Virus record (IMG/VR): IMGVR_UViG_3300028372_000023
Span: 1 to 36,610 of that record
DNA: 36,610 nt
Origin: a virus
Reading direction: 5' to 3' (one strand)
Under the pieces are notes generated by a model, which saw only the letters and a program-made list of their open reading frames with translations, had not been told where the DNA came from and searched no databases. Both the position numbers and the translations under genes were made by a program. Each line of letters starts with the position of its first letter. The stretch's first letter is position 1. Shown piece by piece: positions 16,294-36,610 of this stretch.

Positions 16294-16333
16294 TTACCTT
16301 AACGGATATATTGAACGGTGAGAGGATAAACAC

Positions 16334-20383: not shown

Positions 20384-20423
20384 ACGGCTTTCTTTTTTTT
20401 AAACTTTCCCATACAATTAAGTC

Positions 20424-21581
20424 ATGGAAATAATACACGCACAGTTTAGAGACAGAATGACGTATGACGGCAAATCAAAAACCGCCATATCCGTGCGTGA
20501 TGGATTCCTTGAGTATGCAGGGCATGAGATTGGCAAAGAGCCAAGTGATAAAATTTTTAAAGTGTACCGTTCACCCGCCACAATTGCGAATGTTGCGGGC
20601 ATGATGAAAGGTATTCCATTGACGGATGACCATGTTGACCTTGATGAGCCAGTGACGGAGTCGCGTGGTAAAGTCACAAATGCCACAATGGTTGATTTTA
20701 ATGATGAATCAACGCACAGTAAGTTGGCAATCAAAAATTCCATTGACGTAGACGATGAGGCAGGTAAGATTTTACAATCAGGCAAGCGTGAGTTATCATT
20801 GGGATATACGGGCGTTTTGTTTGAGTATGACGGGGATGAGTACGATTTTGAACAAAAAGACATATCACCTCACCATTTGGCGATTGTTGACCAAGGGCGT
20901 TGTGGCTCAATGTGTAGCTTTATAGACAGAAAAACAAAGGAAACTGAAATGAAAAATAAATATCATAAATTATTCTTGGATGCTCAAGGCACACCAAACA
21001 TGCAAGAGATTGTTGACATGACAATTGCCTTGCCAGATGCAATCAAGGCAATGCCGATTGATGAGTTGAAAAAACTTGCGCCAAAATTACAGGCTATTAT
21101 TGCCAACGCAGGTATTGGCGAGCCAAAGGTTGAGGAAGTTGAAACCGAAACAGCCGATATGGACGGTGATGAAACTGAAATTTCAGATGAGGATGAAGTT
21201 GTAAAAACTGAAACCACAGATGAGGGTGATGAGGTCGAAACCAAGGATGAGGATGAAACAGCCAAAGATAAAACAGCGTATAAAGATACAGCGCAGTTTA
21301 AAGATGCGGTTGCCAAGGCGGTTGACGCTCAATTGAAAGAGCACACGGATGTCATTGTGAAAGCCCGTGATTTTGTTGATGAAAAATATGATTTCAAAGG
21401 CAAGGGCACAAAGCAAATCATGCGTGATGCGCTTGCGGTTGAACACGGCACTCAAAGTTTTGCGGATGCAGAGTTGCCAGTTGCTTTCAAGTTGTTGAAA
21501 CAATCCACAGGCAAATATGCCAATTTTGCGGATGGTGACAATAAAACAAAACTGGATACCTTGAAGGGCAAGGAACTTTAA
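20424..21581 (+). CDS. DUF2213 prohead protease with C-terminal scaffold
   Basis: 385 residues. Residues ~1-170 match the DUF2213 protease family: GFLEYAGHEIG, IKGIPLTDDHVDLDEP-like block with the candidate catalytic His (DDHVD), KRELSLGYTGVL and SPHHLAIVDQGRCG. Then an acidic coiled region (about 235-285) and a C-terminal helical domain, as expected of a scaffold. It processes the capsid and is probably self-degraded. The start has no Shine-Dalgarno; a TACAAT -10 six bases upstream hints at a leaderless message, or the start is the ATG at 20457. An internal start at 20949 has an excellent Shine-Dalgarno. Confidence 0.85.
   Translation: MEIIHAQFRDRMTYDGKSKTAISVRDGFLEYAGHEIGKEPSDKIFKVYRSPATIANVAGMMKGIPLTDDHVDLDEPVTESRGKVTNATMVDFNDESTHSKLAIKNSIDVDDEAGKILQSGKRELSLGYTGVLFEYDGDEYDFEQKDISPHHLAIVDQGRCGSMCSFIDRKTKETEMKNKYHKLFLDAQGTPNMQEIVDMTIALPDAIKAMPIDELKKLAPKLQAIIANAGIGEPKVEEVETETADMDGDETEISDEDEVVKTETTDEGDEVETKDEDETAKDKTAYKDTAQFKDAVAKAVDAQLKEHTDVIVKARDFVDEKYDFKGKGTKQIMRDALAVEHGTQSFADAELPVAFKLLKQSTGKYANFADGDNKTKLDTLKGKEL
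20949..21581 (+). CDS. Nested scaffold protein (internal in-frame start)
   Basis: 210 residues in the same frame as the DUF2213 gene, from Met176. AAAGGAAA (20936-20943) lies eight bases before the ATG, a better ribosome site than that of the full-length gene. The product lacks the protease domain and keeps the acidic and C-terminal helical regions. This is the arrangement of lambda C and Nu3, where scaffold is made in excess from inside the protease gene. Inferred from the site; not shown. Confidence 0.6.
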   Translation: MKNKYHKLFLDAQGTPNMQEIVDMTIALPDAIKAMPIDELKKLAPKLQAIIANAGIGEPKVEEVETETADMDGDETEISDEDEVVKTETTDEGDEVETKDEDETAKDKTAYKDTAQFKDAVAKAVDAQLKEHTDVIVKARDFVDEKYDFKGKGTKQIMRDALAVEHGTQSFADAELPVAFKLLKQSTGKYANFADGDNKTKLDTLKGKEL

Positions 21582-21605
21582 TTAACAGAAAAAAGGAATA
21601 ATAAA

Positions 21606-22070
21606 ATGGCATTTGGTACAGGTTATTTGAAAGACTTTAATGAGGTCGGTGCGGGTGAAGAATACGGGGTAAATAACCGTGTATTGGGACACCGTACATA
21701 TGAGGACAAGTTGGTTGTTGGACGCTTTGCAAAGGTTGCAAGTGGCAGTTTAGACAATCTTGATGGCACAGCGTCACCAGTGATTGCAGGGGTTGTGTTA
21801 CGTTCACCAACCACAGCAGTTGAGGCAGATGGCACAATTGATGCCTCACTTACAACGGGTTCAGTGTCTTACATGCAAAATGGTTTGGTCACGGTAGCGG
21901 TCAAAACAGGTCAAACACCATCATACAAGGGCGCAGTGTTCGCATGTAATGCGGGCGATGCCAACGATGGTATGGGTGCAACGGGCGCAGAGGCAGGTGA
22001 TAATGTTGCAACTGGAGCGATTTTCATTGAGGAAATTCAAACAGGTGTTTGGTTGATTGAACAAAAATAA
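21606..22070 (+). CDS. Head decoration / structural cement protein
   Basis: 154-residue, Gly-, Ala- and Thr-rich beta protein (MAFGTGYLKDFNEVGAGEEY... ASPVIAGVVLRSP ... GLVTVAVKTGQTPSYKG). The pattern of a repeated beta sandwich ending in GAIFIEEIQTGVWLIEQ fits the cement or DUF2190-like proteins found between protease and major capsid genes in Bcep781-type phages. It should stabilise capsid hexamers from outside. Good Shine-Dalgarno (AAAGGA). Confidence 0.7.
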   Translation: MAFGTGYLKDFNEVGAGEEYGVNNRVLGHRTYEDKLVVGRFAKVASGSLDNLDGTASPVIAGVVLRSPTTAVEADGTIDASLTTGSVSYMQNGLVTVAVKTGQTPSYKGAVFACNAGDANDGMGATGAEAGDNVATGAIFIEEIQTGVWLIEQK

Positions 22071-22109
22071 TCAAGAGATTGATTAAAACTTAAAAAGGAA
22101 AATAAAAAA

Positions 22110-23078
22110 ATGAAAATTGGACAGATTTACAATTTAGATGCCTTTCAAGATTTTCTTGGTAGTGCATCAAAAGCGGGCTTTAAAGACAGTTATGCGGGCG
22201 TTGTGCTTGCACGCAACCTTACAGCCGTTGACCCTAAAATTTTTGAGAAAAAGTACCCTGAACTTACATTTATAAATTCAGGCATCACGGCTGATAATTC
22301 AGGCGGTTATGTTGCGCGTATTCAATCGTTGCGCTTGATTGACCAAGGTGAGTTTTCAGTCAATGGTGACAAAGATGGAAACAAAGGCAAAATCTCATTG
22401 AACGCAGAGGACAATTTCCTCGCGGTCAAAAGCCTTGAGGGTCAATCAGAGTGGACAGAAAGCGATGTGAAAACGGCTGAATTGCAAAATATCAACCTAC
22501 CATCACGTTTTGTTGAAACACACAACAAGGTGTATTTACGTACAATTGATAAAGTTGGCTTGGTTGGCTATTCAGACACAAAAGGTTTGTTGAACACAAC
22601 TGATTTCACAGCAACAAGTGCGGGCGGTGTGGTTTCCACATTAACAGCAATTGAGATGTATGAGGGAGTTTCGGAACTTATAGAGGCGCAAAACAACGCC
22701 GTAAACAACACAGCTGAATACAAAGCAAACCGTGTGTTGATGCCGACTCGTGTTTATAACAAGTTGAATGTCACAATGTTGAATACGGCAAATGGTTCAA
22801 GCACAGTGTTGAAAGCATTGCGTGATAATTTCCCTGAAATCACATTCACATCAACATTCCGTGCGGATACAGCCGCAAACGGTGGTGATTTGTCCGCATC
22901 GGCAACGGTTGCATACAATAACTCAAGTGATGCCATGGTGATGCGTATTCCAGTGCCGTTGCAAATCGGTAAGATTGTGCAAATCTCATCATTCCGTCAC
23001 CATGTTGAAAGCATGGCACGTGTTGGTGGTTTGGATATTCTTGAGAAAACAGCAGGGCGTATTTTGACAGGATTGTAA
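22110..23078 (+). CDS. Major capsid protein (DUF2184 family)
   Basis: 322 residues, HK97-like fold of the DUF2184 type: N-terminal helix (FQDFLGSASKAGFKDSYAGV), IQSLRLIDQGEFSV, AVKSLEGQSEWTESDVKTAELQNINLPSRFVETHNKVYLRTIDKVGLVGYS, ANRVLMPTRVYNKLN and, near the end, MRIPVPLQIGKIVQISSFRHHVESMARVGGLDILEKTAG. The last block is diagnostic for the family. It has a strong AAAAAGGAAA ribosome site and is followed by a strong terminator, as expected for the most abundant virion protein. Confidence 0.9.
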   Translation: MKIGQIYNLDAFQDFLGSASKAGFKDSYAGVVLARNLTAVDPKIFEKKYPELTFINSGITADNSGGYVARIQSLRLIDQGEFSVNGDKDGNKGKISLNAEDNFLAVKSLEGQSEWTESDVKTAELQNINLPSRFVETHNKVYLRTIDKVGLVGYSDTKGLLNTTDFTATSAGGVVSTLTAIEMYEGVSELIEAQNNAVNNTAEYKANRVLMPTRVYNKLNVTMLNTANGSSTVLKALRDNFPEITFTSTFRADTAANGGDLSASATVAYNNSSDAMVMRIPVPLQIGKIVQISSFRHHVESMARVGGLDILEKTAGRILTGL

Positions 23079-23101
23079 GATACAATAAATATTGGTATGA
23101 T

Positions 23102-23138
23102 AAAGGCGTGAGCGGATAAAACCCTCATGCCTTTTTTT
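23102..23138 (+). terminator. Strong terminator after the major capsid gene
   Basis: AAAGGC plus GTGAG (23102-23112) pairs with CTCAT plus GCCTTT, an 11-bp stem with one wobble, loop CGGATAAAACC, then a run of T residues (23131-23137). It lies 24 bases after the capsid stop and probably sets the high capsid to downstream ratio. Confidence 0.85.
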
Positions 23139-23163
23139 AACAAAAACGGATAAGGATAAAACC

Positions 23164-23658
23164 ATGACAAGCGAAAAAACAGACAACATTGATTTTGCAA
23201 GTGATACCGCGGGTGAGTATTGGGCACAGGTAAAAGCAGATAATGGCGATGCCGTGACAATCACAGACGTAAAAGGCACGGGCGCAAATGGCGCAATCAA
23301 GAAAGGTGATATTGATGCCTATCTTGAGGGTTTAACAGGTGATGACAATGCGGATGCCGTGGATGGGCCACAGGATGATGCACAAGCCGATACAGACACA
23401 AATGCGGACAATGAGCCACAGGATGATGATAAAGCACCTGAAACGGCAGAAAATGACGTTGCACAGAAACCAACAGCAAAGGATTTCAAAGAGATTAAGC
23501 CAATTAAGGGTAAGTCACTCATCAACAAAACTGGAAACCCATTTGAAATTGATGGTGTTCTTATTGAGCCAAATGGTGAAATTGAATTGAGCGGTGAACT
23601 TGCAAAATCAAAGCGTGTTGCACGTGCTATTGAAACAGGCGTGTTGAGCGTAAAATAA
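23164..23658 (+). CDS. Head-associated protein with E3-binding-like N-terminus
   Basis: 164 residues in three parts. Residues ~15-56 (WAQVKADNGDAV...VKGTGANGAIKKGDIDAYLE) resemble the peripheral-subunit-binding (E3-binding) fold, whose hallmark is GTGxxGxITKxDVxxYL. Residues ~60-105 are a very acidic linker. The C-terminus (GKSLINKTGNPFEIDGVLIEPNGEIELSGE) is a small beta domain. It lies between the capsid and the connector genes, so a head-vertex or head-completion role is likely; the binding-domain match is my inference. Confidence 0.6.
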   Translation: MTSEKTDNIDFASDTAGEYWAQVKADNGDAVTITDVKGTGANGAIKKGDIDAYLEGLTGDDNADAVDGPQDDAQADTDTNADNEPQDDDKAPETAENDVAQKPTAKDFKEIKPIKGKSLINKTGNPFEIDGVLIEPNGEIELSGELAKSKRVARAIETGVLSVK

Positions 23659-23698
23659 TTAAACAGTAAATAAATTATATAATAGGGGTACAAAAGCA

Positions 23699-24052
23699 AT
23701 GGCACGGATTGATGATTTTAAAACAAGGTTTCCAACCTTTAACACATCCGTTGTTGATTCGCTTTTCCCTATTATAGAGCCATTGGGTGATTTGTATTAT
23801 GGCGGTGACTATGAAAACAACCGCACGGATAAAGAGGCATTTTTGCAGTTGTACGCACACCTTTTGACGATTGAGACACGCGGTAATAGTGGTTCAGTAC
23901 GCAATCAGGCATCAAAGAGCGTTGGCAGTTTGTCGGTGTCATATGAGGCATCACAGACAGAAACAGGGCGCATGGGATGGTTTAACACCACAAGGTACGG
24001 GCAACAATTCGTATTCCTTACATCGGCAAATCAAGGGGCGGTATTTGTATGA
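23699..24052 (+). CDS. Head-tail connector (DUF4054 family)
   Basis: 117 residues matching DUF4054: DFKTRFPTFNTSVVDSLFPIIEP, then an aromatic-rich helix with AFLQLYAHLLTIETRG, then KSVGSLSVSYEAS and the C-terminal WFNTTRYGQQFVFLT. This is an adaptor of the gp6 kind that extends the portal for neck attachment. It is preceded by an AT-rich stretch with TATAAT at 23678-23683, a possible but unproven extra promoter. Its stop overlaps the next start (ATGA). Confidence 0.85.
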   Translation: MARIDDFKTRFPTFNTSVVDSLFPIIEPLGDLYYGGDYENNRTDKEAFLQLYAHLLTIETRGNSGSVRNQASKSVGSLSVSYEASQTETGRMGWFNTTRYGQQFVFLTSANQGAVFV

Positions 24053-24522
24053 CAACACGCAATCCAGAGGACTCATTGAAACGCATGAAAGCCCTTGAGG
24101 ATTCCATGAATAAAGCAAAGAAAAAAGCAGTTTTTGTGGGTTTACCATCGGAAAAAGTGGGTGGTGAAATTTATGGTGATGGTCAAACAATTATGACGAT
24201 TGGCGCAATCCATGAATACGGTGCGGGCAACAACCCAAAGCGTAGTTTTTTACGGACTCCATTTATCATGCACAAAAAGAAAATAAATGAATTTATTGCC
24301 AAGCAATTTGAGCGCACAATTGACGGTGTAAAGGTTGATGATGCCCTTGGCATGGTTGGGGCATATTGTCGCAACATATCCGTCAAGGCGTTTACAACAA
24401 AGGGATACGGCAAGTGGAAAGCACTTGAGCCTGAAACAGTAAAACGCAAAGGCTCATCAAAGCCGTTGATTGATACAGGGACGTTGCGCAATGCAATATC
24501 ATGGGTGATTCGCAATGATTGA
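24049..24522 (+). CDS. Neck / tail-completion protein (HK97 gp10- or Mu gpG-like)
   Basis: 157 residues with the sequence marks of this class: KKKAVFVGLPSEK, TIGAIHEYGAG, PKRSFLRTPF near the middle, and PLIDTGTLRNAISW at the C-terminus. These proteins form the ring between connector and tail terminator. It overlaps its neighbours on both sides by 4 to 8 bases. Confident as to class, less as to exact position in the neck. Confidence 0.8.
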   Translation: MTTRNPEDSLKRMKALEDSMNKAKKKAVFVGLPSEKVGGEIYGDGQTIMTIGAIHEYGAGNNPKRSFLRTPFIMHKKKINEFIAKQFERTIDGVKVDDALGMVGAYCRNISVKAFTTKGYGKWKALEPETVKRKGSSKPLIDTGTLRNAISWVIRND

Positions 24523-24853
24523 TGACATGGACATGAGTGAGGTTTTAACCGGTTTTTTACAGCCAGTGACGTTGAAAACGGTCACGGTCACATCCGTTGA
24601 CTTTGTGGACACAACAACCGTCACGACTCAATCAATACAGGCGGTGGTGCAACCCGCAGATAAAGACAAACTGAACGCAGACAATATTGATTGGTCACTG
24701 GAATACCAGACCATCCACAGCAAGTCACAATTGCTTGAGGGTCAGTATGCTGAATATGCGGGCAAGGATTTCAAAATCATATCCGTGATGCCTTATGGTG
24801 ATTATGGTTATTTTGAGGCGGTTGGTGAGGAAACGAAAAGAGATTTATTATGA
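24515..24853 (+). CDS. Head-tail joining protein
   Basis: 112-residue small beta protein (VTLKTVTVTSVDFVDTTTVTTQ...AVVQPADKDKLNADNIDWSLEYQTIHSK...YGDYGYFEAVGEE). The position between the gp10-like neck protein and the tail terminator, and the compact beta pattern, fit a head-closure or stopper protein. I do not recognise a named family with certainty. It is coupled to both neighbours by short overlaps. Confidence 0.65.
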   Translation: MIDDMDMSEVLTGFLQPVTLKTVTVTSVDFVDTTTVTTQSIQAVVQPADKDKLNADNIDWSLEYQTIHSKSQLLEGQYAEYAGKDFKIISVMPYGDYGYFEAVGEETKRDLL

Positions 24854-25332
24854 ATACGCTTGAGAAAAGTTTAAAGATGTTCGTGCGTGATGTTTTGGAA
24901 TTGCCAGAGGCTCAAATCAAAAGCGGGCGTGATAATGCCGTGCAATCGAATTTTGAAACGGATTACATCGTTGTTGATGACCTTGCACCAAGTGAGCGCA
25001 TAGCGGGTTCACTTGACTTTGATGGTGTGACAGAGGTGCAAACCATATCGAATGTTTACATGACAACTTTCACCATAGATTTTTATGGCGCAAACGCATA
25101 TGATTATTGCAATAGGTTTGTGTTATTGGCACGCAGTCAAAAAGCATATGCATTAAAAAAGGTTTTAGGCATCGGGATTTATCAGGTATCATCAATTCAG
25201 GATTTAAAAAAATTGACCGGTCAACAATACGGGAATCGCTATCAAGTGACAATCAAGGTTGAGGATTGCAGAGCGGTTGATGTTGATACATTGAGAATTG
25301 ATGAGGCGAAAATTGAAACAACCACAAGTTAA
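24850..25332 (+). CDS. Tail terminator-like neck protein (gp12 / LIC_12616 type)
   Basis: 160 residues. Features of the family: an N-terminal helix (LEKSLKMFVRDVLELPEAQI), YIVVDDLAPSERI, then MTTFTIDFYGANAYDYCNRFVLLARSQKA with a tail-terminator-like beta-alpha-beta fold, and YQVSSIQDLKKLTG. It probably caps the tail tube and joins it to the neck. It lies just before the sheath gene, the usual place in this group of myophages. Confidence 0.75.
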   Translation: MNTLEKSLKMFVRDVLELPEAQIKSGRDNAVQSNFETDYIVVDDLAPSERIAGSLDFDGVTEVQTISNVYMTTFTIDFYGANAYDYCNRFVLLARSQKAYALKKVLGIGIYQVSSIQDLKKLTGQQYGNRYQVTIKVEDCRAVDVDTLRIDEAKIETTTS

Positions 25333-25344
25333 AAGGACAATAAA

Positions 25345-26844
25345 ATGACAGCAAGTTTAAATAATGTAGTTACCGCAACACTTTTGCCAGAGGGCGTGAG
25401 CCTTGCACGGGACAATATGAATGTTGTTGCCGTTATGACATCACAATTGGGTAAGTTGAGCACAGCCAACCGATATGAGGCTTACTCACAAATTGAGAGC
25501 GTTGCCACGGACTTTGGTACATCATCGGACGTTTACCAACACGCAACGGCTTTCTTTGGCACAACGCCAAATGCGGTCAATGCAGGTGGTTTGTTTATCG
25601 TTGGGTATTGGCGTGGTGCAGATGAGGACACGGACGCAACCACGGGTGTCTTAAAGGGTGCACAGGTCAATGAGGTTGATTTGGTTGGTGAATTACAAAA
25701 GATTTCAGATGGCTCATTTGACATCACGGTTGATGGTGGAACGGCACAAAATATCACGGGGCTTGATTTCCGCACAGTGATTGAGGCAAGTGATATTGTG
25801 ACATTGCTTAATGCTGAAATTACAGGCGCAACGGTTTCATATTCAAATCTTGCATTTGTTGTCACATCGGACACAACGGGTGCATCAAGTGAGGTTTCAT
25901 TTGCCAGTGTGGGTGCATCGGGCACGTATGTTGGTGAATTGTTAAACCTTGCAAGCGGTACGGGCGCAGTGTCAACGGACGGGGTGGCATCGGGCACACT
26001 GGATGACGAGACAAAGGTTGATGCGGTCACAGCACTTAAATCATTGGTGAATTTCAAAGGCTTTGTTTTTGTTGATAAACCATTAAATGCAGAGGCAAAA
26101 TTGTTGGCTCAATGGTGTCAGGCAAACGGCGTGCTATCATATGACGTGTTTAATCAATCAACCAACCTTGAGATTGCCACGACAAACCCCGTTTGGGACA
26201 TCAAGTTGAGTGGGCTTTCAAATTATCGTTGCCTATTCTCAAAGGCGGGCAATAGACGTTTGGCAACCGCATACATGGCACGGGCACACACGGTCAACTT
26301 TAATGCTGAAAACAGCGCATTGACAATGAATTTAAAAGAATTGCCAGTGTCCGCAGAGGATTACACACAAACAGAGATTACAAAGGCAAAAAATGTTGGT
26401 TTAGATATTTACACCACATTCAAACGTGTGCCTAAAATCTTAGTGTCGGGCGCAAATGACTTTGTTGATAATCGGTACAACCTGATTGCTTATATTGATG
26501 CCGTGCAAACGGACACATTCAATTTGTTGGGCACAACCGCAACGAAAATACCGCAGACACGCAGAGGCGTAAATCAGATTGTTGACAGCCTTGAAAAGAC
26601 AACACGTGGATTTGTACGTGCCGGTGTCTTTGGTGCGGGTGAATGGTCATCACCTGATACGTTTGGTGATTTGGATACATTCAAGCGCAATATCCGTGAG
26701 TTTGGGTATTATGTTCTTGCGGGGTCATTGGCAGACCAACCACAATCCGAACGGGCGCAAAGACGCTCACCCGCCATGCAAGTTGCCGTGAAAAATGCGG
26801 GCGCAATTCATAAGGTTGATGTCATCATCAATTTCAATCTGTAA
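25345..26844 (+). CDS. Contractile tail sheath protein (DUF3383 family)
   Basis: 499 residues of the DUF3383 sheath-like family. Landmarks: N-terminal LPEGVSLARDNMNVVAVMTSQ, DFGTSSDVYQHATAFFG, a variable middle domain (residues ~90-215), LAQWCQANGVLSYDVFNQST, then ARAHTVNFNAENSALTMNLK and FVRAGVFGAGEWSSPDTFGD near the C-terminus. It polymerises round the tube and contracts on infection, so the phage is a myovirus. Good Shine-Dalgarno (AAAAGGA). Confidence 0.9.
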   Translation: MTASLNNVVTATLLPEGVSLARDNMNVVAVMTSQLGKLSTANRYEAYSQIESVATDFGTSSDVYQHATAFFGTTPNAVNAGGLFIVGYWRGADEDTDATTGVLKGAQVNEVDLVGELQKISDGSFDITVDGGTAQNITGLDFRTVIEASDIVTLLNAEITGATVSYSNLAFVVTSDTTGASSEVSFASVGASGTYVGELLNLASGTGAVSTDGVASGTLDDETKVDAVTALKSLVNFKGFVFVDKPLNAEAKLLAQWCQANGVLSYDVFNQSTNLEIATTNPVWDIKLSGLSNYRCLFSKAGNRRLATAYMARAHTVNFNAENSALTMNLKELPVSAEDYTQTEITKAKNVGLDIYTTFKRVPKILVSGANDFVDNRYNLIAYIDAVQTDTFNLLGTTATKIPQTRRGVNQIVDSLEKTTRGFVRAGVFGAGEWSSPDTFGDLDTFKRNIREFGYYVLAGSLADQPQSERAQRRSPAMQVAVKNAGAIHKVDVIINFNL

Positions 26845-26870
26845 ATACATAATAGAAAAGGAATAATAAA

Positions 26871-27299
26871 ATGGCAGTAATTACAAAAGATGCGGATAGT
26901 GTCACGCTTGTTTTAAATGGTCACGCTTTCACATCGTTTGGCGTTGGGGACATCATTACAATTACTCCCGTAAACCCTCAAACAAGCCAAGTCAATTCAA
27001 GTGACGGTGGTGTGTCAATCAATACACGTTCAGATGCGAATGTGTATGACCTTAAAATGACAATTCAAAAGTTTTCAGATGACGATGTGTTTTTGAATAG
27101 CATTATCAATTCAGGCACAACCATTCTCACAGGTTCAATGAAAGAAGATTTCAACAGTGACGGTACGGATGGACAGGAAAGTTGGACGCTTGAGGGCGGT
27201 TCAATCACAACCAAACCATCGGACACCAAAAACGACACGGACGGAAACGCCACACTGGAATACACAGTGAAATTCAGAAATGCAAAACGGGCACTATAA
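26871..27299 (+). CDS. Tail tube protein (DUF3277 family)
   Basis: 142-residue protein of the DUF3277 type: VTLVLNGHAFTSFGVGDIIT, DGGVSINTRSDANVYDLKMT, then TGSMKEDFNSDGTDGQESWTLEGGSI and a C-terminal beta strand LEYTVKF. These beta-barrel subunits form the inner tube through which DNA passes. It follows the sheath gene, as in nearly all myophages. Confidence 0.9.
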   Translation: MAVITKDADSVTLVLNGHAFTSFGVGDIITITPVNPQTSQVNSSDGGVSINTRSDANVYDLKMTIQKFSDDDVFLNSIINSGTTILTGSMKEDFNSDGTDGQESWTLEGGSITTKPSDTKNDTDGNATLEYTVKFRNAKRAL

Positions 27300-27315
27300 A
27301 AAGGATTGAACGGAT

Positions 27316-27678
27316 ATGGTTGATTTGAAAGAGTTGAAGGAATCACAGGCGCAAGCCCGTGAGCAAATAAAACAGTGTTTTGATGACAATGAGGCAACAT
27401 TGCCAAGTGGCAACACATATACATTCACAAAGCTGAATCACAAAAGACGGTTGAAAGTGTTCACCCGTTTTCAGTTGCTTGAAAAGCATGAGTTGATGTT
27501 TTTTGACTCGCCTGATTTTGAGGTTGTTGAGAAGATTGTTGAGGAGTCCGTTTTGTTTGATGGTATGCAATTGTCAAAACTTGATGGTCATTGGGACAGA
27601 CACCCACAAGACTTTTTCATGTTTTACAAAACAGCCATGGGGGTGATTTCATACCCTTTTTTGTCAGGCGCGAATTAA
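27316..27678 (+). CDS. Tail assembly chaperone, N-terminal (unshifted) product
   Basis: 120 residues, small and acidic (LKELKESQAQAREQIKQCF...LPSGNTYTFTKLNHKRRLKVF). It lies between tube and tape measure, the place of the lambda G/GT and P2 E/E' chaperones that coat the tape measure during tail assembly. Near its end, T-TTT-TTG (27657-27663) fits the -1 slippery heptamer in the right frame; slipping would add the downstream frame ending at 27902 and make a product of about 195 residues. Confidence 0.8.
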   Translation: MVDLKELKESQAQAREQIKQCFDDNEATLPSGNTYTFTKLNHKRRLKVFTRFQLLEKHELMFFDSPDFEVVEKIVEESVLFDGMQLSKLDGHWDRHPQDFFMFYKTAMGVISYPFLSGAN

Positions 27679-27902
27679 AACTCACATTTAATATCCGTGA
27701 GAATGACGAAGATTATATTCGCCAAAGCAATGTTTCAGATATTGACATGACAATATTCTGTTTATCAAAAAAGGGGTATGGTACTATTGATTATATTGAA
27801 CAATGGGACACGCCACGTTTCCTTGATGTTCTTGAGTACGAACGTATCATTATGAATATTGAAAAACACAGGTACGATTCAGAGAGAGCAAAGGTAGGAT
27901 AA
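27316..27902 (+). CDS. Tail assembly chaperone, -1 frameshift product
   Basis: Predicted fusion. After reading to the heptamer at 27657-27663 the ribosome slips back one base and reads VRRELKLTFNIREND... to the TAA at 27900-27902, two bases before the tape measure start. The second frame alone has an ATG at 27591, but no ribosome site there and no independent reason to start. The extension has YGTIDYIEQWDTPRFLDVLEYE, helical as in other GT-type extensions. Not shown experimentally. Confidence 0.7.
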
Positions 27903-27903
27903 A

Positions 27904-29235
27904 ATGGCAGAGGTCACAGAGGTTGTCACAAAATTTGCCTTTGAAGGTTCAACCGCACCATTGGGTGAATACAACAAACAATTGACCGGCGCAATTAAGG
28001 GGCTTGGCGCATTTGCCACAGCAACATTTGGCGCGTTATCAGGTTTGACCATGTGGGCAGACAGTATTTTAAAATCCATTGACCCTATGGTGCAAATGTC
28101 AAGGCAGACAGGAATTTCCATTGAGAAAATTCAAGAGTTGGGTTTTGCCTCAATGGTCAATGGCGGTTCAATTGATGGCATGAGTGCATCACTTGAGGGT
28201 TTGACAGAGCGAATCGGTGAGGCCGTTGCCATGGGTACGGGTGAGGGTGTCGAGATATTTAAAAAGTTTGGAATTGACCTCAAGGACGCAAGCGGACGGG
28301 CAAAAACAGCGGATAAAATTTTTGGTGAATTGCGTGAAACCATTGTGTCTATGGAACTTGACCAAACACAGGTTTTATCTATTGCGCGAAAATTGGGAAT
28401 GACAACCGAATCCGTTCAATTGTTGATGAAAACAAATGAGGAGATGGCGGTATTGCGTGAGCGTTCACGTGAGGTTGGGCAAGTGTCAACCGAAACGGCA
28501 ATGGCGGCGGCGAATTACAATGATGAATTGAGTATTGCAACCCTTGCATTTAAAAATCTAAAGGTAGAGATTGCGGGCGGTTTCGCACCACAAATGACAA
28601 AATTGACAAAAGGTTTTAAGGACTTAATCGTTGTGAATAAAGAATGGTTGAGCGAGGGAATTTCAGACGGAATCACAGTGCTCATTGGTTTTGGGAAAGC
28701 TATATGGAATGTCGGCTCAATTATTGTTGATGTTATTGGCTTTTTCTTGCAATTTAAGCCCGTATTGGCAGGTGTGACAACCGCGGTTGGTGTTTTGATG
28801 GCATCGTTTTTTCCAATAACATCAATTGTTGCGTTGGTGGTTGGGCTTATCCTTGTTTTTGATGACTTGTTTACAGCGTTCGCGGGTGGAAAATCCGTCA
28901 TTGGTGATTTTTTCAAAGCGTTTGGTGTTGACCTCAAGTTTGTTGGCGACTATTTGACGTGGGTTTGGGATGTCTTAAAGGCAATATTCTCATTGGATTT
29001 TGGCGCATTGGGAAAATTGGGTGAAACAGCATTTAAAAAGGTTGTTGGTGTCTTTTCACAAAGTGAGCAAACGGGTGGCGTTGGCTCATCAAGCATTGAC
29101 AACCGCAGTGTCAACCAAGACATCAAGATTGATATTAAAACCGCAGACCCTCAAGAGGCGGGCAGAGCGGTGGCAGACAGTATGCAAAAGCAAATGAATG
29201 ATGCTAGTGCCCAAACAGGACATGGGGGGCTTTAA
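27904..29235 (+). CDS. Tape measure protein
   Basis: 443 residues: an N-terminal helical part with MVQMSRQTGISIEKIQELGF and GFASMVNGGSIDGMS, typical of tape measures, two hydrophobic stretches (about residues 275-295 and 300-330, e.g. FFPITSIVALVVGLILVFDD) and a C-terminus of polar linker (SIDNRSVNQDIKIDIKT). Tape measures set tail length at roughly 1.5 angstrom per residue, so about 65 nm here, a short contractile tail. It may also act at the membrane on ejection. Confidence 0.85.
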   Translation: MAEVTEVVTKFAFEGSTAPLGEYNKQLTGAIKGLGAFATATFGALSGLTMWADSILKSIDPMVQMSRQTGISIEKIQELGFASMVNGGSIDGMSASLEGLTERIGEAVAMGTGEGVEIFKKFGIDLKDASGRAKTADKIFGELRETIVSMELDQTQVLSIARKLGMTTESVQLLMKTNEEMAVLRERSREVGQVSTETAMAAANYNDELSIATLAFKNLKVEIAGGFAPQMTKLTKGFKDLIVVNKEWLSEGISDGITVLIGFGKAIWNVGSIIVDVIGFFLQFKPVLAGVTTAVGVLMASFFPITSIVALVVGLILVFDDLFTAFAGGKSVIGDFFKAFGVDLKFVGDYLTWVWDVLKAIFSLDFGALGKLGETAFKKVVGVFSQSEQTGGVGSSSIDNRSVNQDIKIDIKTADPQEAGRAVADSMQKQMNDASAQTGHGGL

Positions 29236-30048
29236 ATGCCGTTTTTAGAGCAACTATTGAATCGTGAGCGTTTACCGTATCCATTGCAACAAATAGGCAT
29301 TGGTGGGTTTTCTTTGTTTGCACGTGTCAATGACCGCCTTACATTAAAGGCAGACAACCCAACATCATATGTTGAGGACGGTTCACCGCTCAATGACCAT
29401 CGTGTTAAAAAGCCTGAATTGTTGACAATCAGTGGCTCAATCGGTGATGTGTATCAGACACCAAACACTTTGGTTGACCGCGTGCAATCCCTTGACAACA
29501 ATTTGGGGCAGATAACGCAGTATTTCCCACGCTTGACACCATCACAGGCAATAAATTTCACCAAGGTTTCATCCAATGCGGTGTCACAAATAAACAAACT
29601 TGAAAACCTTATCAATGCGGGCGCACAGGCAAACAGCTTATTGGGCAATATTGACAATCTTTCAAAGCCATTGGGTGAGCAATTTTTGGATGCCATGGAA
29701 AATATACACTATGGAAGCCAACTTGTTTCAATCCAAATGCCGTACCGTATTTATGACAGCATGAGCATAAAATCAGTCATCATTGAGCGGTCAAATACAA
29801 GCGATGGTGTGACATTTACGATTGAGGCAGAGCGTTTCAGGATTGCGGATTTGAATTTTGTTGCCGTTGATAGGGTTTCAACCCGTGGAGGCGGTACGGC
29901 TGAACGGGCAGGGGCAAACCCCGCAGAGTCGTTGGGTGGTCAAGCTGATACGATAAAAGACAAGGGCGCACAAGAGGGTCGTGCCGTATCCAGTGATGAG
30001 GTTCGTTCAAGCGGGTTAAGTGATATTGCGGGGGTTTTCGGTGATTGA
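29236..30048 (+). CDS. Baseplate protein (Dit-like N-terminal domain)
   Basis: 270 residues. The N-terminal ~165 residues (LPYPLQQIGIGGFSLFARVN ... ADNPTSYVEDGSPLNDHRVKKPELLTISG) match the Dit-like tail protein domain found in simple myophage baseplates: a galectin-like ring that binds the tube end. The C-terminal ~100 residues are Gly/Ser-rich and disordered. It starts one base after the tape measure stop. The gene order tape measure, Dit-like, plug, hub, spike, gp25-like, J, DUF2612 is that of Pam3-type baseplates. Confidence 0.8.
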   Translation: MPFLEQLLNRERLPYPLQQIGIGGFSLFARVNDRLTLKADNPTSYVEDGSPLNDHRVKKPELLTISGSIGDVYQTPNTLVDRVQSLDNNLGQITQYFPRLTPSQAINFTKVSSNAVSQINKLENLINAGAQANSLLGNIDNLSKPLGEQFLDAMENIHYGSQLVSIQMPYRIYDSMSIKSVIIERSNTSDGVTFTIEAERFRIADLNFVAVDRVSTRGGGTAERAGANPAESLGGQADTIKDKGAQEGRAVSSDEVRSSGLSDIAGVFGD

Positions 30049-30379
30049 GATTCAAAATATAGGCAATGAGGTTTTACAACGGCATGTAATTCTGTTTCAG
30101 GAAAGTGAAATTATATTGACTTTGCGGTATTTGCCTATGGTTTCAATATGGGTTTTCAATGCTGAATATAAAGGGCGCAAGTTTAATGGCGGGAAATTGT
30201 CAGTGAAAACCCCGCATATGCTATCAAGCAACCTTCCATTTGATTTTTTGGTGACAGATAACAACGGCACAGGGTTTGACCCGATTGACCGCAATGATTT
30301 TGTCAACGGGCGATGTTCTCTTTACATGCTTGAGCCAGATGACATTGAGCGTTTGAGGGGGCAGCCAATTGAGGTTTAA
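30041..30379 (+). CDS. Baseplate plug protein (Pam3 gp18-like)
   Basis: 112 residues from the GTG at 30041, which overlaps the previous stop (GTGATTGA) and follows GGGGG at good spacing; an upstream GTG at 30020 is less likely. Sequence features: RHVILFQESEIILTLRYLP, WVFNAEYKGRKFNGGKLS, then DFLVTDNNGTGFDPIDRNDFVNGRCSLYML. The last block is characteristic of the plug protein of Pam3-like simple baseplates, which seals the tube until firing. Confidence 0.75.
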   Translation: MIEIQNIGNEVLQRHVILFQESEIILTLRYLPMVSIWVFNAEYKGRKFNGGKLSVKTPHMLSSNLPFDFLVTDNNGTGFDPIDRNDFVNGRCSLYMLEPDDIERLRGQPIEV

Positions 30380-31187
30380 CCGTGATTATGAATTGACGAT
30401 ACAAACGGAATTGGAGCGTGCCATTGTGGTGCGCCCCCCGTTTGATATCTCTTTCAATGCGGATAAATCCACAGATAAGAGCCTCAACAAAATGAATGTC
30501 CGTGTGTTTGGATTGTCCGAATCAAACCAGTTGGCAATTGTTAAAAATGCACAGGAAAAAAAGAATTTTGAGGTGTCTTTAAAGGTTGGATATGTGGGCA
30601 GTATTGAGACAATTTTCAAGGGATATGTGAATATAGGTGAACGGTCACGCCAAGGAGCAGACTTACCTATCACAATGGAATGTATTGATGGCGGGTTTGA
30701 TGCCCGTTTTTCATTCACCTCAAAGACGGTTCAAGGTAAAAGCCCAATTGACGCAATCCTTGAGGATATGCCAAACATCCGAAAAGGTAAAATTACAACA
30801 CAAAAAAAACTGATTCGCCCCCGTGTGTTGGTGGGCAATTCATGGAAACTGATTCGTGAAAACCTGAATGGCGAGCAATATTTTATTGATAATGGTCAAT
30901 TGAATATCCTCAAGAGCAATGAGGTTATCAATAGCTTTGTGCCAGTGGTGCAAGCCTCAACGGGTTTATTGAGCACACCAAGTCGTGAGGAAAGCAAGGT
31001 GACGTTTCAGACAACAATGAATCCATCCCTCAAGGTTGGTGGTTTGTGTGAGTTAAACTCAATTTATGCGCCCGCCTTAAATGGAATATATAAAATCAAT
31101 ACAATAGGTTATGATGGTGAATATAACGGGTCATCATGGATGCAAACCGTGACATGTATTTTGGCAAAGGATTATGTGGTTTTATGA
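30369..31187 (+). CDS. Baseplate hub protein
   Basis: 272 residues from a TTG start at 30369 that overlaps the plug stop by 11 bases; no ATG or GTG fits nearby and GGGGGC precedes it. Two beta domains (PPFDISFNADKSTDKSLNKM ... FKGYVNIGERSRQGADLPIT) with the hub-type motif FGLSESNQLAIV, ending in NGIYKINTIGYDGEY. It resembles gp27/gpD-like hub proteins of short-tailed myophages, connecting tube and spike. Confidence 0.75.
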   Translation: MRFNRDYELTIQTELERAIVVRPPFDISFNADKSTDKSLNKMNVRVFGLSESNQLAIVKNAQEKKNFEVSLKVGYVGSIETIFKGYVNIGERSRQGADLPITMECIDGGFDARFSFTSKTVQGKSPIDAILEDMPNIRKGKITTQKKLIRPRVLVGNSWKLIRENLNGEQYFIDNGQLNILKSNEVINSFVPVVQASTGLLSTPSREESKVTFQTTMNPSLKVGGLCELNSIYAPALNGIYKINTIGYDGEYNGSSWMQTVTCILAKDYVVL

Positions 31188-31852
31188 GCGAGAAAAAACA
31201 ATTATTGGATATTATCACGCAGGTCATTGATGAGAGCCTTGCGAATTTGCACACAGCAACCATTGCGCGTGTGACAGCCGTTGGGCAAACCACAATCAAT
31301 TGCAAGCCTGTATTGGCGCGTGTGGTTGATGGTCAAAAGGTTCAATTGCCAGAGTTTAAAGCCGTTCCCCCGTGTTTCATGCAGGGCGGTGGGTCATACA
31401 CAGCGCATCCAATTGCGGTGGGTGATTATGCTTTGTTGATATTCACAGAGCGTTGTTTTGATAATTGGTATGGCGGTGTTGATAATGAAATACCCCTTGA
31501 GTACCGTATGCACGATTATTCAGATGGGTTTGCCATTGTGGGCATCAATCCCCTTGGTCAAGCAATTCCAATACCAAGCGTCATAAAACAGGTTGGTGAT
31601 ACACGGCAAGAGGGAAATTATGACCATGAGGGCAATAGGGTGCAAGCGGGCAACCACACCATCACAGGAAACCTCACAGTCAATGGGAATATGACCATCA
31701 ATGGTGATGGCGGTGGTGGTACAGTCAACATGAATGGTATAGACTTTGTGTTGACAGGTGGTGATGTGACGGTTGATGGCGTGAGCGTTAAATCACACAC
31801 ACACAATGGCGTACAAACAGGCAGTGGAAACACGGGGACACCAAACACATGA
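31184..31852 (+). CDS. Membrane-puncturing spike (gp138/gpV-like)
   Basis: 222 residues from ATG 31184, overlapping the hub stop as ATGA; the frame is open upstream but covers the hub gene. An OB-fold N-terminal domain (IARVTAVGQTTINCKPVLAR ... FMQGGGSYTAHPIAVGDYALLIF) is followed by a beta-helical stem of repeated short strands (TITGNLTVNGNMTINGDG) and a tip with SHTH (204-207) near the end. The HxH pair (H205, H207) holds an iron ion at the apex in P2 gpV and phi92 gp138. It pierces the outer membrane on contraction. Confidence 0.88.
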   Translation: MSEKKQLLDIITQVIDESLANLHTATIARVTAVGQTTINCKPVLARVVDGQKVQLPEFKAVPPCFMQGGGSYTAHPIAVGDYALLIFTERCFDNWYGGVDNEIPLEYRMHDYSDGFAIVGINPLGQAIPIPSVIKQVGDTRQEGNYDHEGNRVQAGNHTITGNLTVNGNMTINGDGGGGTVNMNGIDFVLTGGDVTVDGVSVKSHTHNGVQTGSGNTGTPNT

Positions 31853-32211
31853 CGATTGTATCAGGTTTAGATAAAGACGGTGATTGGCGTTTTGGAAAAA
31901 ACCGTGCGCAATACAAGCGCAATGGTGTTGCCGTTTATCAAAATGTGCAAACCCGAATCAAGTCATTTATAAATGATTGGTTTTTGGACACAAAGACAGG
32001 GATTGATTGGTACACGTTGTTGGGAAATAAGGGAACGGAAACACAGATATTGAGAGCGATTGAGCGTGTTGTTTTAGAAACACAATTTGTCAAATCAATC
32101 ACAAAATTACAAATCACAAACCGTGATAAAAATAGGGGTGTCACAATTGAGTTGGCAATCACAACACTTTTTGAGGACACTATACAGGACGAGATAAGGA
32201 TTGAGGCATGA
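31849..32211 (+). CDS. Baseplate wedge protein (gp25/GpW-like)
   Basis: 120 residues with the gp25 marks: VYQNVQTRIKSFINDWFLDTKTGIDWYTLLG, ERVVLETQFVKSITKLQI, and a C-terminal beta strand. gp25-like proteins start sheath assembly at the baseplate and bind the J-like wedge protein encoded next. Both ends overlap neighbouring genes by four bases. Confidence 0.85.
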   Translation: MTIVSGLDKDGDWRFGKNRAQYKRNGVAVYQNVQTRIKSFINDWFLDTKTGIDWYTLLGNKGTETQILRAIERVVLETQFVKSITKLQITNRDKNRGVTIELAITTLFEDTIQDEIRIEA

Positions 32212-33386
32212 CAACACCAAGTTTTACATTTGAGGGTTTAGACATCCGCACATTGACGGAAATTACACAAGAGTTGCGTGATGGATACCGTGCAATTTAT
32301 GGGAATGACATCAACCTTGAGGCATCAACACCTGATGGACAGCGTGTTGGTATTGAGGCAAAGGCAATCGCAGACATTGAGGAATTTTTGCTCAACCTTT
32401 ACAACCAGATGGATGCTGATTTGGCATTTGGTGAGTGGCTTAATAAATTGATTAAGTTTTCAGGAATACAGCGCAAGCCCGCCACACGCTCAACCGTTGA
32501 AATGGAAATTGTCACAGACAGGATTTTGACATTGCCCGCCAATTACACCCTTGAGGATGAATTGGGGCAAGAGTGGATTGTCACCACAAGCGTTGCGTTG
32601 GCATTGGGCACAAATACCGTGTCATTTGTCTCAAAGGTTTTTGGTGAGATTACAGCCGATGCAAACACCATCACAGAGCAAAGTGATGTTGTGTTGGGTG
32701 TGGTTAGTGTCACAAACCCCGCCATTGCAGTTGCGGGGCTTGATGAGGAAACGGACGCAGAATTGCGCATAAGGCGTGCCAAGTCGGTTGAAAACCCCGC
32801 ATATTCCACAGTGGGTGGTTTGTTTGCCCGTTTGTCCGATTTAGAAAGCGTCACGGACGTTGTTGTTGAGGAAAACGATACAGATACCACGGATGTGATA
32901 CGGGACATCACAGCGCACACAATTTGGTGTGTTGTTGAGGGTGGTGAGACAACGGACATTGTGGAAACGATAGCCAAAAACCGCACCGCAGGGATACGCA
33001 CAAAAGGTGATGTTTCAGGCATATTCAATGAGGTTTTATTGCGCCCCGATGGTAGAGAATTTGTTATACAGCATGAAATAAATTTTGACCGCCCCGTGAT
33101 TGTTGACCTTTATGTGAACGTCACCGCAACACGGACAGAGACAGATAGCCCCGTTGATGTTGAATTAATTAAGCAAAAGTTGGTATCACGGTCATATCGT
33201 ATTCAAGAAAACGCACGGGCATCACAATTGTATTCATTGGCTTATCAAGCGGGTGACAATTTTGTTTTATCTGATTTGGAAATTTCAGATGACAATTTGA
33301 CATTCACAGATGAGAATTTGATTTGTGATTTTGGCTCAAAATTCGATATTGATACGGCAAACATAACGGTCAATGAGGTGGTTTAA
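32208..33386 (+). CDS. Baseplate J-like protein
   Basis: 392 residues of the baseplate J (gp6/gpJ) family: LRDGYRAIYGNDINLEASTPDGQ near residue 22, YNQMDADLAFGEWLNKLIKFSGIQRKPATRS, an Ig-like insert (IVTDRILTLPANYTLEDELG), then the hallmark AVAGLDEETDAELRIRRAKSV and the core ARLSDLESVTDVVVEEN. It forms the wedge ring that opens on contraction. Its stop overlaps the DUF2612-type gene (TTTAATG). Confidence 0.93.
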   Translation: MTTPSFTFEGLDIRTLTEITQELRDGYRAIYGNDINLEASTPDGQRVGIEAKAIADIEEFLLNLYNQMDADLAFGEWLNKLIKFSGIQRKPATRSTVEMEIVTDRILTLPANYTLEDELGQEWIVTTSVALALGTNTVSFVSKVFGEITADANTITEQSDVVLGVVSVTNPAIAVAGLDEETDAELRIRRAKSVENPAYSTVGGLFARLSDLESVTDVVVEENDTDTTDVIRDITAHTIWCVVEGGETTDIVETIAKNRTAGIRTKGDVSGIFNEVLLRPDGREFVIQHEINFDRPVIVDLYVNVTATRTETDSPVDVELIKQKLVSRSYRIQENARASQLYSLAYQAGDNFVLSDLEISDDNLTFTDENLICDFGSKFDIDTANITVNEVV

Positions 33387-34102
33387 TGAGTGCTTTTATT
33401 CAAGAATATGCAAAATTACTGATAAAGCAATATTACAGCAAGCCAAAGGCAAGGGCAGAGATTGAATTTAAAATATCACAATATGAAAAAGAACATAACA
33501 TCATCAATACGTTTCCAGATGAGTTTGATGTTGATACGGCATACGGACACCGCCTTGATTTGATTGGAAAGATTGTTGGCGTTGGTCGTTCGGTCAAATC
33601 GGTTGTTGATAAGATTGGTTTTGGATTTGAGGAAAATTCAAACGCCCGTGGGTTTGCGGACAAGTTCAATGCGCTTGATTCAAGTGCCCCGTTTATTGAA
33701 AGGTTCACACCTGAATACACAGATTTGCAGATGGATGACCCAACATATAGGTTGATTATCAAGGCAAAGATTGCGGTGAATAATGTGAGCGCGTACATGA
33801 TCAGTGATGACCGCATATCCGTTCAACAAGTTATCCAAACAGCGTTTGAAAAACGTGCGTATGTTGCAGACAATTACAATATGTCATTGGACTTGTATAT
33901 TTCACCCGTTTATGAGGGACAGCGTTTGCGCCTTATCAATGAATTAAACTTACTTCCCAAACCGCAGGGCGTGAGGTACAATAAGATTGTAAAAGCAGAT
34001 CGGACACAGACATTTGGGTTTGGTGATAATGATTATGCCGTTGGTTTCGGTGAAAAGTTTGGCGATTCAGATGGGTATTTTGCAGAGAAAGTGATTTTTT
34101 AA
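33386..34102 (+). CDS. DUF2612-type baseplate protein
   Basis: 238 residues: helical N-terminus, LDLIGKIVGVGRSVKSVVDKIGFGFEE, MDDPTYRLIIKAKIAVNN, and a C-terminus RYNKIVKADRTQTFGFGDN. This is the DUF2612 family, functionally like P2 gpI, which links the baseplate to fibres. The last 146 bases recur at the contig start with two differences. It is followed after one base by fibre allele B. Confidence 0.85.
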   Translation: MSAFIQEYAKLLIKQYYSKPKARAEIEFKISQYEKEHNIINTFPDEFDVDTAYGHRLDLIGKIVGVGRSVKSVVDKIGFGFEENSNARGFADKFNALDSSAPFIERFTPEYTDLQMDDPTYRLIIKAKIAVNNVSAYMISDDRISVQQVIQTAFEKRAYVADNYNMSLDLYISPVYEGQRLRLINELNLLPKPQGVRYNKIVKADRTQTFGFGDNDYAVGFGEKFGDSDGYFAEKVIF

Positions 34103-34103
34103 C

Positions 34104-35228
34104 ATGGCACAGATAACAAGATTTGACGGAAATTTAAAACCATTCGCGGATGATGCGCTTGGTACGGAACGCACAATTTTTGGTGCGGAAACACAAGATG
34201 ATACGCTTGATGCAAATATCAATACAGATTTTTTAAGGGGTTGGGGAATTGTTGGGGTCAATGGATTGCCCACCAAACAAGATTTTAATGCGTTTGCATA
34301 CACCTCAACGGCCTTATCCGCATATGTTCACCAAATCGGTGTACCAGAGTGGCACGCCTCACAGGAATACTTTACAGGCTCAATTGCGAATGTTGCGGGT
34401 GTGCTATTTAAAGCCGTGCAGGGCAACGTGGGTGAAAACCCAACCACGGATGATGGCTCAAATTGGTTGCAGGTCACAGAAAACAGCGCATTTACATTGC
34501 CACGCGGTTTTATCAGTGGATTAAATACCGCTATTGATGCAGACAATGACCATGATATTTTGATAAAAGTTGGCTCATGCCGTGATATTGATGACGGCGG
34601 TGACATATTGCTTGAAACTCAAATCACAAAACGCATTGATGCGGATTGGGCAGTTGGTGACAATGAGGGCGGTTTTCCGTCATCCCTCACTTTATCCCCT
34701 AATACGTGGTATCACATATTTGTTATGACAGATGGTACAACAGTTGACGCAGGATTTGACAGTGATGTTGATGCGGTCAATTTACTTGCCGACTCCTCTT
34801 ATATGTCATACAGGCGTGTGGGGTCATTCTTGACAGACTCCTCATCAAACATTGAGCCTTACAAGCAATATGGTGAGCGTTTCATGTGGGATGATGTGCC
34901 AGTGGACTACAATTCAACGGCAACAATTTCATCATTGACTGATTTTGCAATATCAGTGCCAGAGGGCATTGTGACACTTGCTTTAATATCAGGCGATATT
35001 GCAGACAACACAACCGCGGTATCAATTTACTATGTCGCATCAAAAGTGGCAGGTGGTGAGTACACGGTTTTGTATGACGCAACCTCATCCTCAAATACAG
35101 TTGTAAATAATAATGATTTTGAAATACTTGCAGACGAAAATGCAGAGATACAGCACAGGCATACAAACTCATCAGGTTTAGTTAATATCCAAACAAAAGG
35201 TTGGAAAGATTTTAGAGGAAATATTTAA
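34104..35228 (+). CDS. Tail fibre / receptor-binding protein, allele B
   Basis: 374 residues. The first ~125 residues align closely with the allele-A fibre at 148-1125 (GWGIVGVNGLPTKQDFNA, GSIANVAG, DDGSNWLQVT), and the remainder is unrelated. The C-terminal part (LPRGFISGLNTAIDADNDHD ... SLTLSPNTWYHIFVMTDGTT) is like phage fibre or tip domains of beta structure, and the last third (ISVPEGIVTLALISGDIADN) may be the receptor-binding tip. It is followed by its own partner gene rather than the one next to allele A. Confidence 0.8.
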   Translation: MAQITRFDGNLKPFADDALGTERTIFGAETQDDTLDANINTDFLRGWGIVGVNGLPTKQDFNAFAYTSTALSAYVHQIGVPEWHASQEYFTGSIANVAGVLFKAVQGNVGENPTTDDGSNWLQVTENSAFTLPRGFISGLNTAIDADNDHDILIKVGSCRDIDDGGDILLETQITKRIDADWAVGDNEGGFPSSLTLSPNTWYHIFVMTDGTTVDAGFDSDVDAVNLLADSSYMSYRRVGSFLTDSSSNIEPYKQYGERFMWDDVPVDYNSTATISSLTDFAISVPEGIVTLALISGDIADNTTAVSIYYVASKVAGGEYTVLYDATSSSNTVVNNNDFEILADENAEIQHRHTNSSGLVNIQTKGWKDFRGNI

Positions 35229-35230
35229 TC

Positions 35231-35680
35231 ATGAAATATATTTATAAAGATGAGCAGGGCGATATTGTTGCGATTTATTCAAGACCTCAAAAGGGATTGG
35301 ATTTGATAGCCGTTGAGGATAATGACCCTATACTCACACAGGACAGCCCGCGTGAAATCAAGGGGCACATATCAGAATACCGAAAAACAATGGAAAATGG
35401 CGGTGTTGAGGTGAGTGGTATGCTTATCCAAACGGATAGTGAATCACGTTCAAACTTATTGGGGGCATCACAATTAGGTGTTGCAATCAATTGGAAAGCT
35501 GAAAACGGTTTTGTTGAATTGACCAATGAGCAAATACAGGGCATTGCGTTGGTGGTTGGGACACATGTTCAAAAATGTTTCAATTCAGAGCGTGTTGTTT
35601 ATGAGGCGCATGACACAAAGCCGTTTACATCCAAAGAGGCTGTGGAAAGGGCTTTTAATAATGCGTATAAAAATAATTGA
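35231..35680 (+). CDS. DUF4376-like fibre-associated protein
   Basis: 149 residues starting two bases after the fibre gene. The C-terminal ~100 residues (YRKTMENGGVEVSGMLIQTDSESRSNLLGA ... WKAENGFVELTNEQIQGIALVVGTHVQKCF) match DUF4376, a domain often attached to or encoded next to tail fibres in phages. It may be a fibre-assembly factor or a minor tip component. It overlaps the next gene by 20 bases. Confidence 0.75.
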   Translation: MKYIYKDEQGDIVAIYSRPQKGLDLIAVEDNDPILTQDSPREIKGHISEYRKTMENGGVEVSGMLIQTDSESRSNLLGASQLGVAINWKAENGFVELTNEQIQGIALVVGTHVQKCFNSERVVYEAHDTKPFTSKEAVERAFNNAYKNN

Positions 35681-36080
35681 TTCACCACAGCCTGATATAA
35701 GACCGCATGGTGAGTCAGGCAATAACAGGTATAAATTGAATGAAAATTACCGCTTTGTTTTAGGTATTGACGGTGAGCAACACACATTCCAAATCTCAAA
35801 AGGTATGACGTATGATGGGGCAAGTGTGCCCCGTTTTGCTATGGCATTGATTGGATTTGAGCGTGATGGAATACACCGCGCAGGTGCATTGGTTCATGAT
35901 TATTTTTACAGGCGCATGGGGCGCGTTGCGGACATAAACATGATTTCATTTGTGTTTACGCGCAAGGATATTGATAGATTGTTTTTACAGGCAATTGAGT
36001 TTCATGGTATAAAGTCATGGCACGGCCGTTTGGCTTATTTGGCAGTGCGCGGTTTTGGGTGGATGAAAATTAAGTTTTAA
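35661..36080 (+). CDS. DUF1353 family protein
   Basis: 139 residues from ATG 35661; the frame is open 45 codons further, but that part overlaps the DUF4376 gene and has no ribosome site. The DUF1353 pattern is clear: YRFVLGIDGEQHTFQISKGMTYDGASVPRFAMA, then AGALVHDYFYRR with the His-Asp pair. The family is common in phages near fibre or lysis genes; its molecular role is unknown. No counterpart exists in the allele-A version of the locus. Confidence 0.85.
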   Translation: MRIKIIDSPQPDIRPHGESGNNRYKLNENYRFVLGIDGEQHTFQISKGMTYDGASVPRFAMALIGFERDGIHRAGALVHDYFYRRMGRVADINMISFVFTRKDIDRLFLQAIEFHGIKSWHGRLAYLAVRGFGWMKIKF

Positions 36081-36098
36081 AAGAAAGAGAGACAGCTC

Positions 36099-36610
36099 AT
36101 GGTTATTGGAATTTTATTGAGTTTGTTTACGGTTTTGTGGTTTGCATATTGGAGTGCAGAGAGTGGCGCATCTTTGCCGTGGTCATCCAAATGGCAGGGC
36201 TTGACCTCATGGACACATAAATTGCCTGAATGGATTATTGCCGTATCGGTTGGCACGGTTGCCGTTTGGGGTTGGGGTACGATGTTTGACGTGTCACCAT
36301 TGGTTGTAATTGGCCTATGGTTTATTTTTTCAGGCATAGCACTTGCGGGTAAAGAGTCCGCAACATGGGCATATTTGCGTTGGACAGGCCACACAGAGGA
36401 CAAGGACGGTGACGGCATAATCACAGAGGCGGATGGACGTGACAGCACGCTATATGCCCTTAATAATTGGATTGCAAAATTGCTTGGATACCGCCTTGGT
36501 GATGAGGGTTATTCATGGATGTGGGCAATGACAAAGGGTTTTATAATGACGTTGCCCGTTGGTGGCATCACGGGGGCTATATTCCACCCAATAGGGCATG
36601 AGATAGGGTC
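36099..36610 (+). CDS. Phage inner-membrane protein with EF-hand-like loop (copy 2, cut by contig end)
   Basis: 170 complete codons, open at the window end. It aligns along its whole length with the protein at 1425-2051: the first ten residues differ, then similarity is very high, with the EF-hand-like loop conserved (DKDGDGIITEAD, with changes V to I and D to E). The last 127 bases are identical to 1807-1933, so it is the allele-B version of the same gene rather than a second gene. Confidence 0.8.
   Translation, partial: MVIGILLSLFTVLWFAYWSAESGASLPWSSKWQGLTSWTHKLPEWIIAVSVGTVAVWGWGTMFDVSPLVVIGLWFIFSGIALAGKESATWAYLRWTGHTEDKDGDGIITEADGRDSTLYALNNWIAKLLGYRLGDEGYSWMWAMTKGFIMTLPVGGITGAIFHPIGHEIG
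36484..36610 (+). repeat. 127-base terminal repeat shared with 1807-1933
   Basis: Identical to 1807-1933 over exactly 127 bases up to the window end; the base before it differs (C at 36483, T at 1806). This length is a common de Bruijn graph word size. It suggests that the contig stops where two allelic paths meet, and that the genome is circular or circularly permuted. Confidence 0.85.

Follow-up and report, generated by a model that had tools for sequence, protein, structure and literature searches.

The two ends of the window (the whole 36,610-bp stretch analysed, an IMG/VR virus record classed as linear) are two versions of one locus, 1–1933 and 33957–36610, each running from the 3' end of a DUF2612 gene through a tail-fibre cassette to a gene for a membrane-type protein. 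The two cassettes, A and B, very probably derive from a mixture of strains with one cassette per genome, and the copies would lie at the contig ends because the path of the assembler looped once round the circular map of the mixed strains.

In a BLASTN comparison of the window with itself, positions 1–523 pair with 33957–34479 (76.8% identity, E 4e-108) and 1432–1933 with 36111–36610 (90.4% identity, E 0.0), which bears out the claim of an earlier note that the locus is present twice. Base comparison likewise confirmed the 102 identical bases that it had placed in the left flank (45–146 and 34001–34102); upstream of this block mismatches occur at positions 14 and 44 only, and the left flanks of A and B are 98.6% identical over 146 bp. 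As had also been stated, the fibres resemble each other over the first ~125 residues only: residues 1–125 match at 64.8% identity and no match was found beyond. Past the fibre N-terminus the interiors of A and B are unrelated, the whole gene content being replaced. The right flank is homologous as well, but the membrane-protein genes, described earlier as near-identical, share 90% of their nucleotides, and the right copy breaks off at residue 170, the full length being about 208. Among 157 codons compared, these genes have 25 synonymous and nine non-synonymous differences.

All genes of both versions lie on the plus strand. Version A includes the 3' end of DUF2612, a baseplate wedge gene truncated here by the contig start (1–146), fibre A (148–1125, 325 aa; PHROGs tail fibre phrog_24210, E 2e-13), a putative tail-fibre assembly protein (1127–1432, 101 aa) and the complete membrane-type protein (1425–2051, 208 aa), which has 90% nucleotide identity to 36111–36610 and for which no Pfam or PHROGs family was found. 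The fibre and the 101-residue protein had been correctly described; for the latter, named a chaperone earlier, the analysis gave its position after the fibre and a weak match to phrog_4697 (E 0.0075). Version B follows a complete DUF2612 gene (33386–34102; PF11041, E 4e-33), the equivalent of gp17 of Vibrio phage XM1 by alignment, and includes fibre B (34104–35228, 374 aa; phrog_20878 and others), a DUF4376 protein (35231–35680; PF14301, E 2e-15; phrog_10508, tail fibre protein) and a DUF1353 protein (35661–36080; PF07087, E 2e-15; phrog_1158, tail assembly chaperone). The two Pfam matches agree with the earlier description of this cassette. The open frame of the DUF1353 gene starts at 35526, an ATG at about 35661 being the likelier start. 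The membrane-type protein on the right of B (36099–36610) is cut by the contig end. PHROGs assigns both fibres to tail fibre proteins, and a search for the membrane protein in phages gave no match.

The contig ends in 127 bases (36484–36610, plus strand) that are an exact copy of 1807–1933, and the base just before them differs, a feature absent from the earlier note. The value 127 is a usual maximum k in metaSPAdes pipelines. In simulations made with COBRA, breaks caused by repeats leave end overlaps of the maximum k in metaSPAdes contigs (PMC10914622). We constructed a graph with k=127 from A (1–33956) and B (1807–36483), each taken as circular; its input is the window's own sequence, with the upstream sequence of A borrowed from B, and it serves as a consistency test rather than as proof of a mixture. 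The graph has a shared path of 32,163 bp, two branch nodes and a pair of branches, both of which end at 1933/36610, reproducing the right-hand contig break to the base. In this model, positions 1807–1933 are the assembly-graph vertex at which branches A and B join. The 127-bp overlap shows two branches entering one path, an outcome that could also come from a tandem duplication. The left contig break is not reproduced: the graph predicts that branch A starts at 33843, 114 bp further upstream than the actual contig start, which is the equivalent of 33957. The left end has no k-base overlap with the sequences compared and needs a different cause, for example low coverage or a third variant. A direct terminal repeat was rejected, since the contig suffix matches the internal sequence at 1807 and the exact prefix match is 13 bp only. 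Contig-end overlaps of exactly 127 bp recur in related records, between L041 and both L059 and L063, and between L058 and L064. The related record L004 begins with exactly 127 bp in common with 30973–31099 of the window, and this overlap is shared with another record, L010.

The circular map is suggested by comparison with Vibrio phages. In XM1, VBM1, PP270, 1.154.O and 1.052.A the tail module runs from the sheath through a J-like wedge and the DUF2612 gene to the fibre, with one fibre locus after DUF2612, and XM1 is recorded as circular. The sheath, wedge and DUF2612 proteins of the window are homologous to theirs and encoded in that order, and the genes after the fibre encode the membrane protein, an amidase, RecT with an exonuclease, terminase, head and tail proteins; therefore a sensible circular order results when the ends are joined at the fibre locus. 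The closed single-fibre genomes are broadly syntenic with XM1. Residues 80–106 and 201–242 of gp17, the DUF2612 protein of XM1, bind the spike gp18 (PMC10457771). The identical 102-bp block encodes the end of the corresponding C-terminal stretch, which by homology to gp17 would likewise hold the fibre.

The contig would thus go once round the circular map of a contractile-tailed, XM1-like phage and about 2 kb further. The assembler would have entered the shared core via branch A, circled, exited along branch B and halted on reaching the 127-mer at which B meets the already used path again. Genomes with A, carrying the fibre and the small assembly protein, would have a map length of about 33,956 bp (~34.0 kb), and genomes with B, carrying the fibre with DUF4376 and DUF1353, about 34,677 bp (~34.7 kb). 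A and B, which probably belong to different genomes of the sample, would be alleles situated between the gene for the DUF2612 baseplate wedge, whose C-terminus should hold the fibre, and the membrane-protein gene, which is followed by the lysis genes. Such cassettes are probably swapped between genomes by homologous recombination in the flanks, perhaps aided by the RecT and exonuclease of the phage, and a swap would change the host range.

Two genes of the window could serve such exchange, both on the minus strand. A RecT-family annealing protein (5289–6137; PF03837, E 2e-21) is a possible helper of recombination between the flanks, and a PDDEXK-type exonuclease of the DUF3799 family (6209–7303; PF12684, E 4e-11) is its likely partner. 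Several other loci were observed. A 25-bp exact direct repeat (11831–11855 and 12568–12592), partly palindromic (TGTGCGAATTTACACA), precedes two consecutive genes and is possibly an operator. The gene at 11832–12560, which has an Ala-rich repeat tract of the AAAEAAAWAA type in 12-bp units, has no Pfam or PHROGs family found for it. The short ORF at 12598–13008 encodes the zinc ribbon of an IS1595-type transposase without the catalytic part and is probably a domesticated or truncated piece. A GapR-like DNA-binding protein (14132–14437; PF10073, E 5e-30) hints at an alphaproteobacterial host.

The relatives examined have a single DUF2612 gene and frequently differ in the cassette after it. In a search with a DUF2612 alignment, all 22 longer records, most of which are probably near full length and in which partial DUF2612 3' ends could be missed, have one match each. 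Among pairs of relatives with DUF2612 proteins at least 92% identical and fibres taken as complete, the fibre alignment covers less than 60% of the shorter fibre in 17 of 32 pairs, which are not independent, several having a member in common, and in which fibre completeness was judged from a hand list; in these 17 pairs it typically ends near residue 130–150. A threshold of 95% had first been planned, and 92% was used to gain pairs; in the same table at 95% or more, 17 pairs are left, and nine of them fall below the 60% coverage. Where the DUF2612 proteins of relatives are 96–99.6% identical, the entire cassette is exchanged from about fibre residue 130 onwards. In L054/L062 and L059/L072 the replaced cassette has homology on both sides, which picks up again where the next conserved gene begins. 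Among the genomes compared, relatives that are otherwise nearly identical vary in a recognition gene while its flanks are conserved.

L004, a separate IMG/VR record, is a strain variant with cassette B, its fibre being 99% identical to that of the window. Both the 3' end of its DUF2612 gene and its spike gene (31173–31873 in the window) diverge strongly from the window between near-identical stretches, and therefore strain mosaics exist. The spike gene, encoding a baseplate protein, is a second variable locus, about 80% identical to L004 with nearly identical flanks. The C-terminal, fibre-holding part of DUF2612 (33973–34073) differs from L004 at about 21 positions while both have fibre B; the joint and the fibre therefore vary separately. 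L010 (18,924 bp), which has a different sample number, matches 14968–33891 at 100% identity and ends at 33891. A nucleotide search of 33386–36610 in isolate phages found no match, a genome scan with the DUF2612 alignment found three prophage-like matches that led to no host assignment, and an endolysin scan found distant relatives only. Neither a protein scan with fibre A nor an exact A-specific 60-mer revealed another record with cassette A, among records from which near ones may have been missing.

The earlier note had offered two readings, that two phage variants coexist in the sample or that one genome exchanges its fibres. The coexistence of variants is well supported by the 127-bp graph overlap, the right end of the two-allele graph, the 127-bp overlaps of related contigs, the cassette-B variant L004 and the swaps in relatives. 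Of the exchange, the part that stands is recombination between genomes, which has occurred in the family; nothing places both cassettes in one genome. A real tandem duplication, in which one genome would carry B and then A as a spare fibre and could change over through a deletion or a recombination event involving the flanking repeats, is nevertheless compatible with two cassettes on one contig with homologous flanks, with an exact common 127-mer, which also fits an intragenomic repeat, and with the presence of RecT and exonuclease genes. Such an arrangement appears in no isolate relative, and the 22 longer records have one DUF2612 match each. The contig contains no sequence joining the two cassettes, which would have to run from the membrane-protein gene of B to the DUF2612 end that precedes A; such sequence could have stayed unassembled. 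If the 127-mer had a second exit, the A side would be expected to break there too, unless read pairs resolved it. The membrane-protein genes differ mostly synonymously (25 versus nine), like alleles of separate lineages, although an old duplication could also have this pattern. We consider a tandem duplication very unlikely, and we give even less credence to its general form, in which every phage genome would have B then A in tandem and would lose or exchange one of them in the flanking blocks as a built-in spare.

The contig could also be chimeric, with cassette A misjoined from a more distant co-occurring phage that has only the membrane-protein end in common. The upstream link of A lies outside the contig, the gene being cut at the contig start, the flanks of A differ from those of B at two left positions and by 10% on the right, and the assembler's choice of branch A has no visible support. 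Against these points, the left flanks agree at 98.6% over 146 bp, the join on the right is made by 127 exact bases, and nearly identical members of the family commonly differ by cassette swaps, which makes a strain of the same species the simpler source of A; a chimera is highly improbable. A dedicated switch that produces fibre variants within one genome has a virtually negligible probability. A tail-fibre gene is the usual target of such systems, but what separates A from B is a complete replacement of gene content and not an inversion or scattered substitutions. An invertible segment of the Mu G type was rejected, as no inverted repeats of at least 30 bp were found in the window and no serine invertase in the scanned ORFs, and a diversity-generating retroelement was rejected, as these ORFs contain no reverse transcriptase domain. 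The scan, which detected no invertase, integrase or reverse transcriptase domains, covered all annotated ORFs longer than 210 aa and all but a few of the short ones.

A mixture of strains, each with one cassette, therefore remains our preferred explanation, and it has consequences for other contigs. Differing versions of one locus at the two ends of a contig can mean a circular genome with strain variants and not a duplication, and a contig end that repeats an internal sequence over exactly the k of the assembler reveals a looped strain-variant contig without reads. The family offers a clear set of natural fibre-cassette swaps, and the conserved DUF2612 C-terminus together with the first 120–130 fibre residues would mark the interchangeable attachment joint.

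The nearest known phages are those of the XM1 group (XM1, VBM1, Athena1 and others). The sheath is 50% identical and DUF2612 about 44% (44% to XM1 in the alignment), the cement protein of the window matches an XM1 gp53 family, and the modules follow a similar order, from head and tail through the J-like wedge and DUF2612 to the fibre, lysis and RecT/exonuclease genes. The window has a short fibre with accessory genes; in XM1, PP270, 1.154.O and VBM1, by contrast, DUF2612 is followed by one long spike gene, and the lysis genes lie on the opposite strand. As for the variation itself, we are confident that it is of a known kind, that of the metaviromic islands of marine phages (Mizuno et al. 2014, PMC3909814), and not a genome with two switchable fibres. 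In those islands near-identical co-occurring phages differ in their tail-fibre or recognition genes, which show under-recruitment of reads, and, as here, the fibre N-terminus is conserved and the C-terminus variable; here the variation is known from two alleles on one contig and from contig comparison instead of read recruitment. The contig end resembles the breakpoints described for COBRA (PMC10914622) in having exactly 127 bases in common with another path. It differs from them in that the other path lies inside the same contig, because the map is circular, and in that the left end has no overlap.
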